From Bacillota bacterium (GTDB lineage Bacteria > Sysuimicrobiota > Sysuimicrobiia > Sysuimicrobiales > Segetimicrobiaceae): a DNA stretch of 64,000 nt. The stretch lies in the NCBI GenBank assembly GCA_021324295.1, contig JAJPJJ010000011.1, forward strand, positions 1 through 64,000, given 5' to 3'. Below, in pieces: positions 21,448 to 32,394 of the stretch. The position numbers and the translations under genes were made by a program. The notes beneath the pieces were generated by a model, which was given only the letters and a program-made list of their open reading frames with translations, made no database searches and had not been told where the DNA came from. The first letter of the stretch is position 1; the number at the start of each line of letters is the position of its first letter.

Positions 21448-21706
21448 CCGCAGGGGTCCGGGGTAGTCTCGAGCGAACCCCGCGCCTTCGAGCACCCTTT
21501 CGAGGGCGCCGGCCATCCTTCGGAGGGCAGGTGACGGAGCCGCCTTCGGAGGATGCCACCTCGTGGAGCAGGACCACGGAGGCGAGGCTCCCCGATTCGA
21601 TACGGCGGGGTGGCAGGCGGGGTTACCGTCGCGCGCCCGGATCGCGAGGCGGGATCGCGGGGCGCCGCAGGCTCGGCAGGCTCCGGAGACGAAGGAGACG
21701 CGCCAC

Positions 21707-22876
21707 ATGGACGCGAGGGGGTTGTACCGCATCCCCGGGCCGGTGCAGGAGCTGCTCTTGAAAGCGGCGCTGGGGCGGGGGGCAACGGCCGTCGCCGCAT
21801 GGGAGCAGTGGAAGCGGCAGGCGGACGTCGACCGGTTGGATGCCGACTCCCAGCGTCTCCTTCCCCAGCTCTACCTGGCCCTCCACGCGCGCCGGGCCTC
21901 GGACCCGCTGATGGGCCTGTTGAAGGGGTTCTATCGCCGCACGTGGTACGAGAACCAACTGCTGTTTCACGCGATGGCCCGTCCCCTGCGGTCGTTGCAC
22001 GACGCAGGCATCGAGACCATGCTCCTCAAGGGCGCCGCCCTCACCGTGACGCATTACCGGGACCACGGTCTGCGCCCGATGGGCGATTTCGACATCCTGG
22101 TTCGCGCGCACGATGCGCCCGAAGCTATCGGGCTGCTGGAGGCTCTGGGCTTCGCCCCCTCGCAGGCCTTCGGCCAGGCGATGCATTTCAGGGATGCCGC
22201 CGGGGCGGAGCTGGACCTCCACTGGCGCCTGTTCCCAGAATGCCCGCGGGACGTCGACATCGACGCGGAGTGCTGGGAGGGCGCGGTCCCGATCACGGTC
22301 CACGGGGTCTCGACCCGGGCGCTGAACCCGGCCGACCAGTTGCTCCATGTCATCGCGCACGGGCTCGTCCACGGGCCATTGTGGGCGGAGGTGGGCACGC
22401 TTCTCTGGCCCGCGGACGCCGCGGCGATCGTGCGGGCCTCCTCGGCGGAGCTGGACTGGGACCGGGTGCTCGCGCAAGCCCGCCGGTGCCGGCTCGGCCT
22501 GTCGGTCCGAGTCGCGCTGACGTACCTGCGCGAAGTCCTCGACGTGCCCATCCCTGTCGCGGTGATGGACCAGGCGCGCAAGACACCCGTATCGCTGGCC
22601 GAACGCATCGCCCATCGGGCACGGGCTCGTCCAGCGCGCCGTTGGGGACCCTGGCTGGCGCTGTGCGTCGCATACGTGCAGTACCGCTCGAGCCTGCCAG
22701 CCGACCTCGGGACCCTTCGCACGCTCGCGGGCGTGCCCGGGTTCTTCCAGCGAAAGTGGGGGCTCGGCCACCCGTGGTCGCTGTCGTGCGCGGCTCTCTT
22801 CCGGGGGACGCGGAGGATCGCGTGGGCCGTGAGCGGCGCGCGGCGCTATTCCCGGGCGGGGGACGGTGACGGATGA
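21707..22876 (+). CDS. Nucleotidyltransferase family protein (NTP_transf_5-type)
   Basis: IETMLLKGAALTVTHYRDHGLRPMGDFDILVRAHDAPEAIGLLEALGF...ELDLHWRLFPE; start ATG 21707. Confidence 0.8.
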   Translation: MDARGLYRIPGPVQELLLKAALGRGATAVAAWEQWKRQADVDRLDADSQRLLPQLYLALHARRASDPLMGLLKGFYRRTWYENQLLFHAMARPLRSLHDAGIETMLLKGAALTVTHYRDHGLRPMGDFDILVRAHDAPEAIGLLEALGFAPSQAFGQAMHFRDAAGAELDLHWRLFPECPRDVDIDAECWEGAVPITVHGVSTRALNPADQLLHVIAHGLVHGPLWAEVGTLLWPADAAAIVRASSAELDWDRVLAQARRCRLGLSVRVALTYLREVLDVPIPVAVMDQARKTPVSLAERIAHRARARPARRWGPWLALCVAYVQYRSSLPADLGTLRTLAGVPGFFQRKWGLGHPWSLSCAALFRGTRRIAWAVSGARRYSRAGDGDG

Positions 22877-23640
22877 GGCGGGGCGGGGCACGGCGCGCCT
22901 CCGGGCGGGGCCTCCTTCGCGCGCCGGCGATCCAGCGACGCCTTGAGGATCCTGGCGTAATCGGTTCTCGCGCCGCGTTCCCGGATCACCGTGTTGGTTG
23001 CGTGGATCCGCCTCAGCAGCACGACTTCGGGCAACATGAGGCTCTTCAACCCGTGCTCCATCGCCCTCGCATACCAATCGATGAACTCTCCCACGCGCCC
23101 CGCCGTGGTGAACGGTCCCACCCGCACGAACGACTCACGTTCGACCAGGAGCGTGCCGGCGGCAAACCCGGCGAGCACGTCCCCGGCTCCCGTCAACCTT
23201 CTGCGCGCGGCGTCGTCGAGGTCGGGGCTGTGGAACTGCCGGATATGGCCCAGGACCATGTCCCGCGTGGGGTCCGCCCGGAGGGCCGCCATCTGGCGCT
23301 CCAGCTTCTCCGGGGTCCACACGTCGTCGGCGTCGAGGAACGCCAGAAAGCGGCCCCGGGCCAGGCCCACCCCCCGATTGCGGGCTGCACCGGGCCCCGC
23401 GTGGAGCTGAACGCAGCAGCGGACGGCGGCGAAGCGACGGGCGACCGCGGCGCTGCCGTCAGACGAGCCATCGTCAACGACGACCACGTCGATCGGGCGA
23501 TACGTCTGGGCCAGGACACTCTCGATGGCCTCGCCGAGATACTTCGCGCCGTTGAAGACCGGGATCACGACGGTCACGAGCGGTGCCGGCTGCGGAGGTG
23601 CCGCCGGCCGCCGTCCCGCTCGCACCACCATCTTACTCAT
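22846..23640 (-). CDS. Glycosyltransferase family 2
   Basis: PLVTVVIPVFNGAKYLGEAIESVLAQTYRPIDVVVVDDGSSDGSA...ARNRGVGLARGRFLAFLDADDVW. Confidence 0.92.
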   Translation of the reverse strand: MSKMVVRAGRRPAAPPQPAPLVTVVIPVFNGAKYLGEAIESVLAQTYRPIDVVVVDDGSSDGSAAVARRFAAVRCCVQLHAGPGAARNRGVGLARGRFLAFLDADDVWTPEKLERQMAALRADPTRDMVLGHIRQFHSPDLDDAARRRLTGAGDVLAGFAAGTLLVERESFVRVGPFTTAGRVGEFIDWYARAMEHGLKSLMLPEVVLLRRIHATNTVIRERGARTDYARILKASLDRRRAKEAPPGGAPCPAPPHPSPSPARE

Positions 23641-24412
23641 CCTTGGACGGCGCGGGCGGCGCAGACGGTGCCCCTCCCCGCCTCGCCGCATCGAACAGGC
23701 TCGGGAGTGGCGCCGCCAGGCCCTGGTTCCGCCGCCGGCGGCGGTCCAGCGATCGTTTGAGGACGTCGAACACCCGAAGCTCCCGAATGTCCCGGCCACG
23801 TGTCATGTTGCCCGGGTGACGGCGGTAGAGCAGCGTCACGTCGTCCTGGACCAAAACCGGCGCACCGCCTTCCCGTGCGCGCATGAACCAGTCGGTGTCT
23901 TCCCCGTAGCGCAGGGCTTCGTCGAAGCCGCCGATCCGCTGAAAGGCCCGCCGGCGGAACAGCGCGGCCGTGGGAGACAGCAGCACGAACGGCGGCGAGC
24001 ACGGCTCGATCCGCGGTTCGGAATCGGCGCCGACGATGCGCCGCACGCACCGCGTTCGACCGAGAACGACATCGATCGACGGATCCTCGTCGAGGCATCG
24101 CAGCTGGCGGGCCAACCTGCCCGCCGGCCAGAGGTCATCGGCGTCCAGGAACCCGATCGCATCGCCGCGGGCCAGCGTCAACCCGTGGTTCCGCGCCCGC
24201 GCGGGCCCGCCGTTCTCCTGGTACACGTAGCGCACGTCGTCGCCCTGGAGGCCCCTGGCGACGTCCGCTGTGCGATCGGTCGATCCATCATCGACGATGA
24301 TCAACTCCAGGTCGGGATATGCCTGGCGGCGAAGGCTGTCGACCGCCTCGGCCAGGAACCCTTGGCAGTTGTAGACCGGGATGATCACGCTGACGCGGAG
24401 CTGGCTCGTCAT
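23633..24412 (-). CDS. Glycosyltransferase family 2
   Basis: MTSQLRVSVIIPVYNCQGFLAEAVDSLRRQAYPDLELIIVDDGSTDRTA...IGFLDADDLW...GEDTDWFMRA. Confidence 0.92.
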   Translation of the reverse strand: MTSQLRVSVIIPVYNCQGFLAEAVDSLRRQAYPDLELIIVDDGSTDRTADVARGLQGDDVRYVYQENGGPARARNHGLTLARGDAIGFLDADDLWPAGRLARQLRCLDEDPSIDVVLGRTRCVRRIVGADSEPRIEPCSPPFVLLSPTAALFRRRAFQRIGGFDEALRYGEDTDWFMRAREGGAPVLVQDDVTLLYRRHPGNMTRGRDIRELRVFDVLKRSLDRRRRRNQGLAAPLPSLFDAARRGGAPSAPPAPSKDE

Positions 24413-25500
24413 ACGGCACCGGGCGTCTCGCGGAGCACGTCCTGAATCGCGCGAGGAATGGTGGAGAGCATCGACCCGAGACGCAGCGCATAGCACGGCA
24501 CGCGCTTCACACACGCGGCCAGGATCCCCAGCGTGGCGTGATCAGCCCCCGCTAGAGGGAAGACCGTGCTGGGGGCGAGTGCCCTCATGGCCGTGGCCGG
24601 AGACACCGGGCATAACGTGGTCTCGGGGCATCCCGTGACCTGGGGGACCAGGATCGCCCGAATCGGGAACCCGGCCGCGAGACGATCCCGGTGGTCCCGG
24701 TACAGGAACGACAGCGCTTTGTCGGTCCCCGGGGCGTCCAGGATCCTCGGGGTGGCCGCCAGGACAGGGAATCGGCGAAAATCTTCCGCGTAGAGTTTGA
24801 CGCAGTTGTAAAGGCTGTGCACGTACGGGGACGGGTCCATCGACAGCAGGCAGTGATCGTCCGCAGCGTAGAGCAGCTCCGTGCCGAGGCAGGTGAGCGC
24901 CGCGGTGGACTTTCCGGACCCCCCCTTTCCGACGAGCAGTACGCCCCCGCGTCGATGGCCGACCGCTGCCGCATGTATCAGTTGCTTGCCCCGGCTGCGC
25001 ATCGTCCAATGCAGAAGCTGTTTGAGCGGCGCCCCACGCTCGTAACCCGGGAGCCGGCGAGCATCGCGAACGCAGTATACGCCCAGATGGCGGGCGGCGT
25101 CCCGCATGGAAAGCACGCCTGTAGCGACATCGAAATCGAACTGGACGCGTTCGTCGCAGTACCGTCGCGCCTCCCAGCGGTTGGCGTCCCCTCCCATCCG
25201 CCAGGGGGGAGCGGGGACGTCCGGGAGCATCGACTCGACATCCCACAGGCACACCGTCAGCGCCGGATGGGGATGAGGCGTCGCGGCCAGGTGCTCGAGC
25301 GCGGGGGCAACGAACGGCACAAGCGTGGAGCCCGCGAAGCGCAGCCGCACGGGGTAGCCGGCGATGCGGTACCAGCGGTCGACCGAGTGCCCCGCCGCCC
25401 GTACCGCACGCTCGAAGACGCGGTAGACGGTCTCGAAGAACGCGACCGGGTCCTGCGTGGAAGCCCCGGGAGGCACCGGCCCCGCCGCCCGCGGGCTCAC
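24409..25500 (-). CDS. HprK-like kinase-fold protein (RiPP-cluster type)
   Basis: LIHAAAVGHRRGGVLLVGKGGSGKSTAALTCLGTELLYAADDHCLLS; GTG start at 25500 overlapping the PqqD stop (GTGA). Confidence 0.75.
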   Translation of the reverse strand: MSPRAAGPVPPGASTQDPVAFFETVYRVFERAVRAAGHSVDRWYRIAGYPVRLRFAGSTLVPFVAPALEHLAATPHPHPALTVCLWDVESMLPDVPAPPWRMGGDANRWEARRYCDERVQFDFDVATGVLSMRDAARHLGVYCVRDARRLPGYERGAPLKQLLHWTMRSRGKQLIHAAAVGHRRGGVLLVGKGGSGKSTAALTCLGTELLYAADDHCLLSMDPSPYVHSLYNCVKLYAEDFRRFPVLAATPRILDAPGTDKALSFLYRDHRDRLAAGFPIRAILVPQVTGCPETTLCPVSPATAMRALAPSTVFPLAGADHATLGILAACVKRVPCYALRLGSMLSTIPRAIQDVLRETPGAV

Positions 25501-25976
25501 TCGCGGGGCTCTCCCGAAGACTCCGGACCGCCCTCGGGCCTCGTCGGCCAGCCCACCTCGTCGACGTCGTGGATCGGATCGAGGAGGAGCAACTCCTGCA
25601 TGTCGCTGTACTTGCGGAGCGTGGGCACGTCGAACCGTGGAGGGGACGATGCCGAATCCCCCGTCCACCGTCGGGACCCTTGGGCGTCCTCCCCCGCGTC
25701 TCCCTGACCGGGCACGATCAGGCCTTCGCTCCGTAGGGCGTCGAGAAACGGCAACACCGCCGCCTCGATATCGCGCCTCGGCATGCGGTACCGGGCCGTC
25801 AGGCCGTCGACGATGTCGTCCGTCGTCGCCCCTTCGATGCGAGTCCACACGTCGGCGGCGACGCCGTCCACGCTGTAGTACGTGCCGCTGCCGAGGTCGA
25901 CGATCACGACCTCGTCGTCGAAGACCTGGTAGACGACCGCGGGGCTGTTGATCCTGAAACACGCAGGTGCGCTCAT
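25497..25976 (-). CDS. PqqD/RRE-like protein with C-terminal precursor-like tail
   Basis: VVYQVFDDEVVIVDLGSGTYYSVDGVAADVWTRIEGATTDDIVDGLTARY (PqqD fold), then FDVPTLRKYSDMQELLLLDPIHDVDEVGWPTRPEGGPESSGEPRE. Confidence 0.8.
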   Translation of the reverse strand: MSAPACFRINSPAVVYQVFDDEVVIVDLGSGTYYSVDGVAADVWTRIEGATTDDIVDGLTARYRMPRRDIEAAVLPFLDALRSEGLIVPGQGDAGEDAQGSRRWTGDSASSPPRFDVPTLRKYSDMQELLLLDPIHDVDEVGWPTRPEGGPESSGEPRE

Positions 25977-26350: not shown

Positions 26351-27775
26351 GTGGCCCCGGGCGCTGACGTGGGCGTTCGATTGCTCCACGCTGCGCGCGA
26401 GCTCGGACGTCAGCTCGCGCAGGAGCTGCATGGGGCCGGGAGCCGCCTGAGCGGCGCGATCTCGGGCCGCGGCGGCGACGCGGAGGGCTGCGTGGCTCGG
26501 ATCCGCTCCCGGTTGCCGTCGATCCTGCGCCACGCTGAGCGGGATCTCGCCGAGAACGTCCTGCCGTTCTGGGCTCGGGCCTCCGACGGCGAGCACGGTG
26601 GATTCATCACACACCTCGACCGCGACGGCCGCCGCCTTGGGACTACGGACAAGTACCTGGTGATGCAGGCCCGGCTGGTGTGGACGTTCGCGGCCGCTCA
26701 CCGCCACGGGCTGACGCGCCACGGCTATCTCGCGCTGGCCGGCCGGGGCGTCCACTTCCTGCTGGACAAGATGTGGGATCGCGAGCACGGCGGGTTCTTC
26801 TGGATCGTCGGGCGCGACGGAGCCCCGCTCGACACGCGGAAGCGCGCCTACGGCCAGGGCTTCGCGATCTACGCGCTCGCCGAATACGCAGCCGCCGCGG
26901 GCGACCCGCGGGCCCTCGCGTGGGCGGAGCGGACGTTCGACCTCCTGATCGCGCACGCGGCTGACGGGGACCTCGGCTTCCGCGAGGAGTTCGTCCGCGA
27001 CTGGACTCCGGCCCCGCCTCCGCTCGGCGAGCGCAAGACGCTGGACACGCATCTCCACCTCTTGGAGATGCTGATAGCACTCGCCGGCACGACGAAGCGG
27101 GAGGCGCACGCGGCCGCGCTCACGCGGGTCCTCGACATCTTGCTCCGGAGGGTGGTCCACGGCCGGGATCGGTACGCCGCAGACCTGTTCGATCGATCGT
27201 GGCGGCCCAGCGACGACTGGCGACATCGCAGACGCGTGAACTACGGGCACGACGCCGAGCTTGCCTGGTTGGCCCTCGAGGCGGTCGATCTTCTCGGCCG
27301 TCCGCGGATCGAGATACGAGACCGCGTCCTGGGCCTGATCGATCACGCGCTCGCGTACGGCTTCGATCGTACACGGGGCGGGATCGCTCACTACGGTCCG
27401 CCGGCGGGCGCGGTGACCCACGCGATCTATCTGAACCCGGCGCGCCTGGCCAAGCTGTGGTGGCCGCAGGCTGAGATGCTCGTGGCCACCATCGAGGCGT
27501 ATCGCTGGACCGGCCGGGCGAGGTACCTCGTTGCATTTGAGAAGCAATTCGAGTGGGTGTGGCGGCATCAGGTCGACCACGAGGCTGGAGACTGGTTCGA
27601 GGCCGTCACGTGGCGCGAGGGCCGCCCCCTGAGCCTTAGAAAGGGCCACGACTGGAAGGACGCCTACCACCAGAGCCGTGCGTGGATGGAGGTGTCACGG
27701 CGCCTTCGGGCGATGGGCATCCGGCCCGGTGAGGAGACGGCCGAGTCCGCCGGCGCGGGATCCCGATCACTGTGA
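26351..27775 (+). CDS. AGE-family (N-acylglucosamine 2-epimerase-like) epimerase/isomerase
   Basis: NVLPFWARASDGEHGGFITHLDRDGRRLGTTDKYLVMQARLVWTFAAAHRHG...KTLDTHLHLLEMLIAL...NYGHDAELAWLALEA. Start may be internal. Confidence 0.85.
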   Translation: MAPGADVGVRLLHAARELGRQLAQELHGAGSRLSGAISGRGGDAEGCVARIRSRLPSILRHAERDLAENVLPFWARASDGEHGGFITHLDRDGRRLGTTDKYLVMQARLVWTFAAAHRHGLTRHGYLALAGRGVHFLLDKMWDREHGGFFWIVGRDGAPLDTRKRAYGQGFAIYALAEYAAAAGDPRALAWAERTFDLLIAHAADGDLGFREEFVRDWTPAPPPLGERKTLDTHLHLLEMLIALAGTTKREAHAAALTRVLDILLRRVVHGRDRYAADLFDRSWRPSDDWRHRRRVNYGHDAELAWLALEAVDLLGRPRIEIRDRVLGLIDHALAYGFDRTRGGIAHYGPPAGAVTHAIYLNPARLAKLWWPQAEMLVATIEAYRWTGRARYLVAFEKQFEWVWRHQVDHEAGDWFEAVTWREGRPLSLRKGHDWKDAYHQSRAWMEVSRRLRAMGIRPGEETAESAGAGSRSL

Positions 27776-29077
27776 TCCGCCGGCCCCGGGGCGAGGCTTC
27801 CTCATCGCCAGGAGACGCTTCGCCGCCGGGCTCAGGCCATATCGGACGGCGAGCCGCGCCGCCCGCAGCGGAGAGTACAGGAACCCGAACGGCCCGGGAA
27901 GCGGCAGCAAGCGTCTGTCTTTCTCCGTCGGAACCAGCAGGCGTGCGCATGGACGGAGGGCCAAGAGGACGCAGTTCCAGAGCCTGTCAGGAGCACGTTC
28001 GGCGAGGCGGAGCAGATAGCGGCGGCGTGCCCAGTCCGCTTTGAGCGAGCGCCACAGAGCAGGCTGGTCCGCTGAGGGGTCGCCATCGACCCGAAACAGC
28101 CATGTCCGCACCCACGCCGCGAGACGTCCGGCCCCCGCGTCGTGTCTGACCTCGGAACGGATGGCGTCCGGAAGGGGAGCTCCCAGGAGGTCGTGAGCGA
28201 GGAGCAGCCCAAGGGCGACCGCCCGCCAGCATCCCGATGGCTTTGCCAGCGCCCGCACCCGGTGCCAGTTCAGGTTCGGACACGCGCGCACCGCCTCGGC
28301 CACATCGCAGATCCACCGGAGCGACGCCCAGCAGTGCTTGCTGCCATGGACGCACAGCGTGAGCAGGCGCTCTTCCGGCGGAAGATCCGCGACCCAGGCG
28401 CCCGCCAGCCGCACCGGCTGCCGACGCTCCCCGAGGGAGGCGAGATCCAATGAGCCGAGAAAGCCCTCCGGGGTGATCCTCCAGCAGAGCTCTGCGCTGT
28501 GGCGGTCAGCTCTGTGCGTGAACGTGTACTCGTATTCCCCTGGCTCGGTCGGGCGCCCCCGCGCGTCGAGCTTGGTGCGCACCTCGTACCCCGCCGCGAG
28601 GAACAGGCTCTTGGCGCGCAGCGCGTCCCTCTCGTGGATCAGAATGTCGAGGTCCAGGAACTCGCGAAGGCAGAGGTCTCCATAGACCGCCGCCGCGAGC
28701 ACGGGACCCTTGAGGGGCACGGCGGGGATCGCGTGCGCATCGAGCAGCGCAAGTAGGCCGATGAGCCTCCCGGCGAGGTTGCGGTTGCGCGCTCCACACC
28801 TCCGCGCATACCGGTTGAGCTGCTCCCGGATGGCCGGCGGCACCGCCTCCGGGCACGCAGCCCGGAGGCTCCGATAGGCGAGGTTCAGCACGTCATGGGA
28901 GCGCGCCAGTCGAACGAACTCCATCCAGCTCAGGGGTCCGGAGGCGAGCCTCCGCACGCGCTCGGCGGTCTGCTGGTCGAGGCGGGTCCGGGCGCAGCAC
29001 AGCAGCAGGTCAACCGCAGGAGACGTGGAGCGCGGGCGAGCCGGCCCGGGTCCTTCAGATTCGAGGTCGCCCGGCAT
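27767..29077 (-). CDS. Nucleotidyltransferase family protein (NTP_transf_5-type)
   Basis: IPAVPLKGPVLAAAVYGDLCLREFLDLDILIHERDALRAKSLFLAAGYE...AELCWRITPE; start ATG 29077. Confidence 0.8.
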   Translation of the reverse strand: MPGDLESEGPGPARPRSTSPAVDLLLCCARTRLDQQTAERVRRLASGPLSWMEFVRLARSHDVLNLAYRSLRAACPEAVPPAIREQLNRYARRCGARNRNLAGRLIGLLALLDAHAIPAVPLKGPVLAAAVYGDLCLREFLDLDILIHERDALRAKSLFLAAGYEVRTKLDARGRPTEPGEYEYTFTHRADRHSAELCWRITPEGFLGSLDLASLGERRQPVRLAGAWVADLPPEERLLTLCVHGSKHCWASLRWICDVAEAVRACPNLNWHRVRALAKPSGCWRAVALGLLLAHDLLGAPLPDAIRSEVRHDAGAGRLAAWVRTWLFRVDGDPSADQPALWRSLKADWARRRYLLRLAERAPDRLWNCVLLALRPCARLLVPTEKDRRLLPLPGPFGFLYSPLRAARLAVRYGLSPAAKRLLAMRKPRPGAGGSQ

Positions 29078-30068
29078 CGCGACGCAGGAGGCTCCGCAGG
29101 AGGGAGGCGAGCCTTTCAAAATCGCGCCCCGTCTCCAGGCGGTAGCACGGGCATTCGCGCGCGAGGCGCGCCAGGACATCCAGGTGGGCCTGAGAGGAAC
29201 GGGGCTCGGTCGGAAGCAGATGAGCGATCAGCTCGGCGAACGCCTCGCCCCGATCCACAGGAGCCAGCGCGCTCGTGTCCACGCCCGCGACGCGGGGGAA
29301 GACCAGGGCCGCCGGTGTGCCTGCACGCCCGATCGCGGAGCCGTAGACCTCTTCCGGGTAGAGCAGCCGCTTGGGGCGGCGCGCCGGCGCCGCGCGGGCC
29401 AGGTGCGGCTGGACCTCCGGGAACAGGCTCGCCGTCTGGTCGGTGATGCCGGCCACGTCCGGGAACCCGAGCGCCTGCAGCCTGCCGTCGCGCGCGTCGA
29501 TGAACAGCACGTCGTCCGCCAGCAGGTCGAAGCCGGCCCGCAGCAGGGCGAGGACCAGGGTCGTCTTCCCCGCCCCGCTCGTGCCGGGCAGCACGAGGGC
29601 CTGCCCCCCGAGGCACAGCCCTGCCGCATGGAGCGGATACAGACCGTGGCGCTTCGCCAGCTCCATGAGCGCGATCGTGAACAGGACGTGGGCCGCGATC
29701 CAGGCGTTCTCGGGCGGGTGCGTGAGCAACGAGACCCGTACGTGCCCGTCCGAGGGACTGGCCAGGACCCTCACGCGCCCGCCGTAGTCCACGTAGAGCC
29801 GGTCGGACCCGTCGAGGTACAGCACCTCGGCGGACGGCAGGTGATCGTACACGGAGCGGGCCGGCCCCCGCGGTCGCTCGACGACGTGTCCCTGGGATGG
29901 ATCGACCCCGTAGAACTCGAACGCCGCGTCGGCACGGTCCCCCGGGCGCATGGGCGGAAAGTGTCTCAGCCTGGCGTCGAGCAGCCTGACGGGCCCGGGA
30001 TCGCCATAGATGGCGACGCGCAGCCCGTGGATGGAGTACGTGTGCCGCAGTGGCAGGGTGGCGATCAT
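29055..30068 (-). CDS. HprK-like kinase-fold protein (RiPP-cluster type)
   Basis: LYPLHAAGLCLGGQALVLPGTSGAGKTTLVLALLRAGFDLLADDVLFID (Walker A/B); start ATG 30068. Confidence 0.75.
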   Translation of the reverse strand: MIATLPLRHTYSIHGLRVAIYGDPGPVRLLDARLRHFPPMRPGDRADAAFEFYGVDPSQGHVVERPRGPARSVYDHLPSAEVLYLDGSDRLYVDYGGRVRVLASPSDGHVRVSLLTHPPENAWIAAHVLFTIALMELAKRHGLYPLHAAGLCLGGQALVLPGTSGAGKTTLVLALLRAGFDLLADDVLFIDARDGRLQALGFPDVAGITDQTASLFPEVQPHLARAAPARRPKRLLYPEEVYGSAIGRAGTPAALVFPRVAGVDTSALAPVDRGEAFAELIAHLLPTEPRSSQAHLDVLARLARECPCYRLETGRDFERLASLLRSLLRRDAGRPRI

Positions 30069-30547
30069 CCCGGCAGGCCCTGCCGGTTCCGCCACGGCAG
30101 CGGGGCACCCGATCGTCCCGATGGGAACCTGTACATCTCCGTGTAGCGGAGCCGCGGGTCCCGGGGCTCGAGAAACGGCTCGCCATCCCGCTCCAGCCAG
30201 CAGTGGCCGGCGAACCTGCCGTCGGGATAGCCGACCCCGAAGCACAGCGCGACATCCAGCGCGGCGCGCCTGAGGAAGTAGTACAGCGTGAGCCCGCGGG
30301 TCAGGCATCCCTGGTCGATGACCGGTCTCCCCAGGGCGCAGACGGCGTCGACGTACCGGACGATGCGGTCGACCTGATCCGGTTTCACGCGGCCGGCGGG
30401 CACTGGCGGGGTCAGCAGACGCTGCAGCTTCTCGAGTCCCAGCCGCGCGAGGAACGGCGCGACGGCGGCAAACGCGACGATCCGAGCCAGCAGCAGCGCG
30501 TCGCTCGGGCTACGGAGCTTCAGCAGCCCGTGCAGCCGCCGGCGCAC
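30065..30547 (-). CDS. Lasso peptide biosynthesis B2-type transglutaminase-like protease
   Basis: GRPVIDQGCLTRGLTLYYFLRRAALDVALCFGVGYPDGRFAGHCWLERDGEPFLE (Cys/His motif of B2 proteins). Confidence 0.82.
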   Translation of the reverse strand: MRRRLHGLLKLRSPSDALLLARIVAFAAVAPFLARLGLEKLQRLLTPPVPAGRVKPDQVDRIVRYVDAVCALGRPVIDQGCLTRGLTLYYFLRRAALDVALCFGVGYPDGRFAGHCWLERDGEPFLEPRDPRLRYTEMYRFPSGRSGAPLPWRNRQGLPG

Positions 30548-30815
30548 CCTCGGTCACCAGCCCTTCCGCTGCGAGCTCCTCGAGCAGCTCCAGCAGATCC
30601 TGCTCGACCTGCTGCGCCGGCGCGTCGAACTCCTGCCAGATCAGCGAGGCGATCTCCGGCGCGGAACGATGGCCGTCACAGAGCTCCCACACCCTCAGGC
30701 CCACGTCGTCGAGGCTGTAATACCGGCCGGTCCCGAGGTGGAGCAGCATCATCGTGCCCGAGACTTTCTGGGCGATCACCTGATCCGCGTGCGCGGGTCG
30801 CTCCGGTCGCGCCAC
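30510..30815 (-). CDS. PqqD/RRE-like protein (lasso B1-type)
   Basis: GTG start at 30815 with AAAGGAGGG SD; VIAQKVSGTMMLLHLGTGRYYSLDDVGLRVWELCDGHRSAPEIASLIWQEFDAPAQQVEQDLLELLEELAAEGLV. Confidence 0.85.
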   Translation of the reverse strand: MARPERPAHADQVIAQKVSGTMMLLHLGTGRYYSLDDVGLRVWELCDGHRSAPEIASLIWQEFDAPAQQVEQDLLELLEELAAEGLVTEGAPAAARAAEAP

Positions 30816-30895: not shown

Positions 30896-30922
30896 GGGAA
30901 CCGGCGGTGCCGCCGGGTTCCC
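30896..30922. terminator. Strong hairpin between candidate precursor ORF and PqqD gene
   Basis: GGGAACC-GGCGG-TG-CCGCC-GGGTTCCC with a single bulge; placed as an attenuator between the peptide (ends 30944) and PqqD (starts 30815). Confidence 0.45.
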
Positions 30923-30943: not shown

Positions 30944-31039
30944 CTAAGCTGTCGAGATACTGGGCGGCGTGAGTGTCTGCGTGATGCGGCTGATCGGCCC
31001 TAGCTTCCTGGGCACGGGCTTCTGGGAGGCTCGCTTCAT
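30944..31039 (-). CDS. Candidate RiPP precursor peptide, 31 aa: MKRASQKPVPRKLGPISRITQTLTPPSISTA
   Basis: ATG at 31039 with AGAAAGGAGGGGCGGG SD, TAG at 30944-30946; immediately upstream of PqqD-B2-HprK-nucleotidyltransferase genes. Contains a G-x4-[LI]-T leader-like pattern (GPISRIT). Confidence 0.6.
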   Translation of the reverse strand: MKRASQKPVPRKLGPISRITQTLTPPSISTA

Positions 31040-31377
31040 CCCGCCCCTCCTTTCTGCGGCGTCCGTCGGACGGTGCCCGGCGACCGCGGCGCACGCCCGG
31101 CTCGACGTGGATGCGCCGAAGAGAGCCCGCCTACCTGCCTCCTAAAGGATGAATCGACGCCTCGAAGGCGCCTAGTCGGAAGCGCGCGCAGCGCCCCGAG
31201 CGATTGAGGCGGGGTGAGGGCCGTGCTCACCGGCGCGTCGCGCCCGCTCAGCCGGCGCTGGCGAAAGCGGACCGGAGGAGAAGCTTTGCCTGCGCCGAAC
31301 GTCGGCCCCGAGGGCATGCTCGACGCAGCGTCCGCGCCGGCTACGCCGGTGCGGCCGGTGCTGGGATGTGGAGGCGG

Positions 31378-32394
31378 ATGCGGCGTCACGGCGCTCGGGG
31401 GGCGCCCGACCGGGCGGCTTTCCTGAGGCTCCACAACCTGAAGCGCGACAGGCCCGCTGAGGGCCGCACGGGCTTTCGCGGCGTCGATATCTGGCGGTGG
31501 CAGTACTTCCAAGACGTCGCGTGCCCGGCGTCGGTCGTCATCCCGATCAGCGACCCGGTCGCCTGGCCCCTCTACCCGGAGCACCGGAAGATCTACAACA
31601 AGCTCTTCGTCTGCGAGAGCCAGGGGGTCCGCCACGGCCCGCACGGGGTCCCGCCGGAGCGCTTCCCGGTCTTCAGCAAGCCCATCATCAATCTCGACGG
31701 GATGGGGTCGGGAGGGCGGATCATCCGGTCCCCGGGTGAGCTGGAGGCGCACTTCAGGTCCGGCCACATGTGGATGCAGCTCCTGCGGGGACAGCACGTC
31801 AGCACCGACGTCGTCCTCGCCGAGGGGGTGCCACGCTGGTGGCGTCACACCGTGGGATACCCGCGCCCCCGCGGGATGTTCGACTACTGGGCCGTGCTCG
31901 CGGCGCGCCGTCCGGCGCTCGAGGCGTACCTCGCGAGGTGGATCCGCGCGCACCTGCGCGGGCTCACGGGGGTCATCAACATCGAGACGATCGGTGGGAC
32001 GATCATCGAGTGCCACCTGCGGATGGCCGAGCAGTGGGCCGACCTGAACGGCCCCGGGTGGCTCGATGCGGTCGTCGAGCTGTACACGAGCGGCCGATGG
32101 CGGTACGCCGACCGGCGGCGGACGGGCTACAGCGTCGTCCTCTTCGCGCGGCACGGGCCGCGCTACTCGATCGATCCCGACGCGGCTGCCGCCCTGCGGG
32201 CGCACCCCGGCATCTCCAGCATCCAGATCACGTTCGACGTGCACGGCCCGCCGGAGCGCCACTCGATGCCGCCCGGCGGGTTCCGGCTGGCGATCGTCAA
32301 CTGCTGGGATCTCCGCGCCGGCCGCGCGGTGCGCGCGCGCCTGCGGCGCCTGTTCACGCCGGGCGCATCGGACGGCGCCGGCCGGGACCGGTAG
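31378..32394 (+). CDS. Uncharacterised protein, ATP-grasp-like C-terminal motifs
   Basis: FSKPIINLDGMGSGGRII...MWMQLLRGQHVSTDVVLAEGVPRWWRHTVGYP...VINIETIGGTIIECHLRMAEQWADL; start uncertain (ATG 31378 with GGAGG). Confidence 0.5.
   Translation: MRRHGARGAPDRAAFLRLHNLKRDRPAEGRTGFRGVDIWRWQYFQDVACPASVVIPISDPVAWPLYPEHRKIYNKLFVCESQGVRHGPHGVPPERFPVFSKPIINLDGMGSGGRIIRSPGELEAHFRSGHMWMQLLRGQHVSTDVVLAEGVPRWWRHTVGYPRPRGMFDYWAVLAARRPALEAYLARWIRAHLRGLTGVINIETIGGTIIECHLRMAEQWADLNGPGWLDAVVELYTSGRWRYADRRRTGYSVVLFARHGPRYSIDPDAAAALRAHPGISSIQITFDVHGPPERHSMPPGGFRLAIVNCWDLRAGRAVRARLRRLFTPGASDGAGRDR

Follow-up and report, generated by a model that had tools for sequence, protein, structure and literature searches.

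Linear polyphosphorylated peptides (LPPs), described from Bacillota in 2026, arise from clusters without a cyclase. Their linear precursors bear the leader motif YxxPxVLxHQxIxFETxxS, and Ser3 is the residue that the kinase LppK polyphosphorylates (PMC13381572). Threonine at this position (S3T) is not accepted by LppK (PMC13381572). Among lasso peptides, BsfK phosphorylates Ser3 of the core (PMC10368454), and in pseudomycoidin a nucleotidyltransferase adds hexoses to the phosphate on the C-terminal Ser (PMC8498205). Leaders of the [Y/W]xxP type are bound by RiPP recognition elements (RREs) and presented to the B2 peptidase (PMC5067487, PMC13381572). The residues Tyr(-17) and Leu(-12) are main RRE contacts.

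Here, we describe a related locus in a 64,000-nt stretch of DNA (the window; contig JAJPJJ010000011.1 of assembly GCA_021324295.1, assigned to the Sysuimicrobiota in GTDB). A first-pass annotation of the window had pointed to an unannotated open reading frame (ORF) for a 31-aa peptide without Asp or Glu, placed behind a strong Shine-Dalgarno sequence and directly upstream of genes for a PqqD-family RRE, a B2 peptidase, an HprK-like kinase, and a nucleotidyltransferase (NTase). All of these features were confirmed (Table 1), with the PqqD start lying 128 bp downstream of the ORF. The encoded peptide has a net charge of +6 and divides into a leader, MKRASQKPVPRKLGPISRITQ, and a predicted core, TLTPPSISTA. 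We put at about two in three the probability that this ORF encodes the precursor of a linear RiPP whose pathway derives from that of lasso peptides but lacks a cyclase. The product is most likely linear, and probably phosphorylated, rather than a knotted lasso peptide.

Table 1. Features of the locus and candidate precursor peptides of homologous loci (coordinates are window positions)
Feature	Position	Strand	Evidence or remark
Candidate precursor peptide ORF, 31 aa	30944..31039	-	translation MKRASQKPVPRKLGPISRITQTLTPPSISTA, then stop
Shine-Dalgarno sequence AAAGGAGG	31046..31053	-	6 nt ahead of ATG
Stem-loop GGGAACCCGGCGGCACCGCCGGTTCCC	30896..30922	-	separates the precursor stop codon from PqqD; fold energy -25.3 kcal/mol, weak by z (-1.3); no T tract
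PqqD-family RRE (B1)	30510..30815	-	PF05402, 1.8e-19
B2 leader peptidase, transglutaminase-like	30065..30547	-	NF033537, 62.5 bits vs cut-off 33; PF13471
HprK-like kinase	29055..30068	-	TIGR04352, 8.1e-16, below cut-off; PDB HPrK P-loop match, 1.1e-4
Nucleotidyltransferase, NTP_transf_5	27767..29179	-	PF14907, 5.5e-59; true start may lie further downstream
PqqD2 (second module)	25497..25976	-	PF05402, 4.8e-17; precursor-like C-terminal tail FDVPTLRKYSDMQELLLLDPIHDVDEVGWP
HprK2-like kinase (second module)	24409..25629 (start uncertain)	-	TIGR04352, 8.7e-6, below cut-off; P-loop GKGGSGKST and ADD
Second NTP_transf_5 nucleotidyltransferase	21563-22876	+	Pfam
Family-2 glycosyltransferase	22846-23799	-	Pfam
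Family-2 glycosyltransferase	23633-24514	-	Pfam
L037 peptide			MSLKPYIKPKLRFLGLLRLLTKLSF; just before PqqD, behind a Shine-Dalgarno sequence
L039 peptide			MKKKAYEKPVLARHGPLRKLTKQTF; just before PqqD, behind a Shine-Dalgarno sequence
L040 peptide			MKKTYRKPSLRRLGLLRQITRFSF; just before PqqD, behind a Shine-Dalgarno sequence
L056 peptide			MVKKAYRKPSLRRLGLLRRVTRFSF; just before PqqD, behind a Shine-Dalgarno sequence

By their Pfam and NCBIfam matches, the PqqD, B2, and NTase assignments are firm. The best PDB match of the PqqD protein is the lasso RRE TbiB1 (5v1u, 3.8e-11), and B2 exceeds its family cut-off and carries Cys81 and His115 in invariant alignment columns, so that both lasso proteins, B1 (RRE) and B2, are represented. 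The B2 and HprK genes overlap as ATGA (positions 30065 to 30068), and the NTase gene comes next. The AlphaFold model of the HprK-like protein (mean pLDDT of 86) has the PEPCK/HPrK P-loop kinase superfamily as its fold match, and an alignment places H147, G162, G165, G167, K168, T169, D185, and D186 on the motif of the lasso kinase BsfK, with Ser170 of that motif replaced by Thr. In a tree of HprK sequences, the kinase groups with those of four homologous loci (L037, L039, L040, and L056; see below) and a Verrucomicrobial group, with low internal support. The absence of an exporter gene adjoining the PqqD-B2-HprK-NTase module counts against our reading. On the other side of the peptide gene, the divergent neighbor (31366-32394, +) gave no Pfam or PDB match, and its single-sequence AlphaFold model (pLDDT of 35) was uninformative.

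The contention that this peptide could not close a lasso ring proved correct and can be extended, since the ring acid is missing and the contig also lacks a cyclase gene. Asp or Glu at core position 7 to 9, a defining lasso feature, is absent from the peptide, and no Asn_synthase domain was detected on the window's contig (C115). The genome's only matches lie on four other contigs (C57, C82, C40, and C104), and a cyclase supplied from one of these would be useless without an acceptor acid. In a control lasso locus (genome G506), the Asn-synthetase gene lies beside B2, whereas among the homologous loci whose genomes were searched, a set without L070, L071, and L072, none has one on its contig. 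Because the cyclase and the ring acid, two defining features, both fail, the product is not a lasso peptide, and with neither of them present no macrolactam would form.

The proposed lasso-type leader fared less evenly. The peptide falls into the lasso-leader register with P8, G14, and I19-T20 (P-14, G-8, and T-2), spaced as in its relatives, but Tyr(-17) is replaced by Ser and Leu(-12) by Pro, and the loss of both main RRE contacts weighs against our reading. We trained a leader profile on the leader portions of seven peptides from other loci, leaving out the window peptide. Of 587 ORFs in the window, the peptide came first (9.7 bits, E value of 0.023; runner-up, 6.1 bits). This result is supportive, but the training peptides had been picked by a lasso-leader regular expression, so the test retains some dependence on the motif. 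Shuffling the residues (20,000 times) or the intergenic DNA by dinucleotides (3,000 times) never gave a score as high. The match is more than chance, and the hidden Markov model score is modest. Taken with the tail QTLTPPSISTA, which is longer than the tails of the related peptides, the two lost contacts mark the window peptide as a divergent member. No NCBIfam or Pfam family, NF033521 included, recognizes it; annotation and lasso mining miss such genes because they are short and the cyclase is absent.

A plain alignment of six B2 sequences was too diverse for a search for relatives. We therefore used a motif-steered B2 alignment, with invented filler between the conserved motifs, which served only to steer the search; tblastn and comparison over the full length bore out its four matches. 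These relatives (B2 identity of 43 to 50%) are L037 and L040 from Acidobacteriota, L038 from Verrucomicrobia, and L039 from Chloroflexi; all have the PqqD-B2-HprK order, with the NTase in most. Further searches added L056, from the class of L040, and three loci in relatives of the L038 genome (L070, L071, and L072). B2 retains the conserved Cys and His in every homologous locus. A search of genome contigs with HprK as a single protein found no match, and searches of viral contigs likewise gave none. Among plasmids, B2 had no relatives and the kinase only weak ones. Within the window's own family, the other genomes lack the cluster, as judged by B2, which is a point against our reading.

Lack of a conserved short ORF at the syntenic position had been named as the outcome that would refute the precursor, and this outcome did not arise: such an ORF is present in four of the seven evaluable loci (L072 and L057, at contig ends, were left out). 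The four peptides (Table 1) are basic and 24 to 25 aa long, with a shared leader pattern, YxxPxLxxxGxxxx[LIV]T, and then [KR]x[ST]F immediately before the stop. Beyond the leader Thr, they contain no Asp or Glu and a single Ser/Thr at exactly Tyr+18, one residue before the end, leaving cores of 3 to 4 residues. The L039 peptide exceeds the NCBIfam lasso-leader cut-off (NF033521; 22.6 bits vs 19). On the Verrucomicrobiota side, L038, L070, and L071 have PqqD-B2-HprK loci without a recognizable precursor, which again counts against our reading.

These three loci, the divergence at the two RRE-contact positions, and the lack of a curated family match would also fit a chance ORF of 31 untranslated codons, with the true substrate located elsewhere, for example, in the precursor-like tail of PqqD2. 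We regard this as quite unlikely given the position-conserved peptides in four loci, the strong Shine-Dalgarno sequence, and a profile rank that no shuffle equaled. Even less probable is a degenerate precursor in a decaying lasso cluster that has lost its cyclase: the missing cyclase, the absence from sister genomes, and the off-consensus peptide are compatible with decay, but each of the four enzymes is intact and keeps its catalytic residues, and the cyclase-less layout is found again, with cores free of acid residues, in other phyla.

Under the preferred reading of a linear RiPP, the steps can be sketched by analogy to described systems. The peptide would be expressed and bound through its leader by PqqD (RRE/B1), and the HprK-like kinase would phosphorylate a Ser/Thr just past the leader; phosphorylation of the Ser/Thr tail, as the first-pass annotation had suggested, is plausible, and the best candidate is Thr24, core position 3 in lasso (Bsf) numbering. 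B2 would cut after Thr20-Gln21 and free TLTPPSISTA, the NTP_transf_5 enzyme would attach a group to the phosphate, by analogy a sugar, and the product would presumably be exported. In support of this reading, the Ser/Thr at Tyr+18 in the four related peptides lies exactly as far from Tyr as the phospho-Ser does in the leader motif of LPPs. Two observations run against it: the Tyr+18 site of the window peptide is Leu23 rather than Ser/Thr, flanked by Thr22 and Thr24, and the candidate acceptor is a Thr, the residue that LppK refuses. Published homologues for each step, together with the Tyr+18 Ser/Thr and Thr24, lead us to interpret the locus as a phospho-RiPP pathway in which B2 is used and a cyclase is missing.

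The shrinkage of the relatives' cores to [KR]-x-[ST]-F implies a precursor that is little more than a recognition leader with one acceptor hydroxyl. On an alternative reading, such cores would be too short for a stand-alone product, and the peptide would stay uncleaved on PqqD as a carrier, on whose terminal Ser/Thr the kinase and the NTase, perhaps with the neighboring glycosyltransferases, build a phospho-sugar group; NTases and glycosyltransferases do lie close by. This arrangement is unlikely, since a B2 with its Cys and His kept in every homologous locus implies cleavage, and the window tail exceeds those of the relatives in length. Another possibility, suggested by the net charge of +6 to +9 across all five peptides, is that the whole basic peptide is a membrane-active product that the enzymes merely tune. 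It is very unlikely: the conserved residues are those of a leader for RRE binding and B2 cleavage, and no exporter lies beside the peptide. Beyond the cyclase-less pathway proposed for the window, we tentatively suggest an undescribed lasso-derived RiPP branch spanning several phyla, in which the precursor would consist of an RRE-binding leader and one phospho-acceptor and the product would be a phosphorylated or nucleotidylated tri- or tetrapeptide, or a group on an uncleaved scaffold, with the window peptide as a longer-tailed member.

The stem-loop between the precursor and PqqD genes is a possible attenuator or RNA stabilizer. In L037, L039, L040, and L056, the peptide gene has a stronger hairpin behind it (z of -2.4 to -3.0), and hairpins of this kind may set the precursor level above the enzyme levels. 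The window also contains a second module (Table 1), and an N-acylglucosamine 2-epimerase family gene (26351-27775, +; PF07221, 1.3e-51) lies between the two PqqD/HprK modules. The PqqD2 tail, FDVPTLRKYSDMQELLLLDPIHDVDEVGWP, has its own [YF]xxPxL motif and resembles a fused precursor. A PqqD protein encoded on a plasmid of Crinalium epipsammum ends in the same tail (FEKPMLEKFTDMEDLLLLDPIHEVD..GWP; 64% identity to the PqqD2 tail), and its gene is followed by genes for an NTase, an HPr kinase, an FkbM methyltransferase, and a glycosyltransferase. Judged from these sequences, PqqD2 is possibly an RRE fused to its own substrate.

Several other loci showed related arrangements. In L040 (3003-7460) and L056 (2853-8055), a second PqqD, a radical SAM/SPASM protein, and an HprK-like protein lie beside the leader-only module, and a secreted-looking protein of ∼490 aa, weakly like DUF3344, is encoded directly upstream of the peptide. 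Genome G263 has, around a PqqD-B2-radical SAM-HprK-NTase set on a contig without Asn-synthetase, four precursors (L026, 6052-6280 and 9812-10129) that combine lasso-type leaders with short cores (AQASIDTIE, ANGSTDT, AGDISGARG, and AANPSIT). Between B2 and HprK, L019 (4371-5160) encodes two putative precursors that are rich in Cys and have YxPP-type leaders, with candidate cores containing ...CTCVWS... and ...CLCSDVVCPVYC....

Set against the described systems, the locus resembles LPP clusters in its discrete RRE, HprK-like kinase, NTP transferase, [Y/W]xxP-type leader (with Ser in place of Tyr in the window peptide), lack of a macrolactam cyclase, and nearby glycosyltransferases. It differs in having a B2 cysteine peptidase where LPPs have an SpI-like (archaeal-type) peptidase, in lacking an adjacent MsbA-like exporter, in its origin outside Bacillota, in the Thr rather than Ser acceptor, and in a precursor of 31 aa (24 to 25 aa in relatives) compared with 35 to 200 aa. 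A Pfam scan of window genes around the island found no SpI-like signal peptidase, B2 being present instead; among the genes scanned nearby, there was no MsbA-like exporter, and the sole ABC genes belong to an NMT1-type uptake system at 15 to 20 kb. Because neither was found among the genes scanned nearby, the system is by definition not an LPP system, although it probably works like one. The Bsf-type phosphorylated lasso peptides of Bradymonas (PMC10368454) share the split B1/B2, the kinase motif residues, the NTase, the leader register (P-14 and residue -2), and a hydroxyl residue at core position 3; the window system lacks their cyclase C, core Gly1, Asp8, and transporter D, and has Thr rather than Ile at -2. 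Paeninodin and pseudomycoidin (PMC5067487, PMC8498205) likewise involve B1, B2, an HPr-kinase homologue, and a nucleotidyltransferase, but have a cyclase and a ring acid and are phosphorylated on a C-terminal Ser, whereas the window peptide ends in Ala. The HPr-rel-A system also pairs an HprK-related kinase with a PqqD-like protein, but the window proteins score far below its cut-offs (57.9 vs 200 bits for TIGR04352 and 15.7 vs 35 bits for TIGR04353).

The locus indicates that the lasso toolkit of RRE, B2, HprK-like kinase, and NTase is probably also deployed where no ring is closed, in bacteria other than Bacillota and in combination with a B2 peptidase, and the relatives in other phyla indicate that a precursor can be reduced nearly to its leader. 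Synthetic peptides of 24 to 31 aa would allow direct assays of leader binding by the RRE, of phosphorylation and cleavage, and of the NTase reaction.
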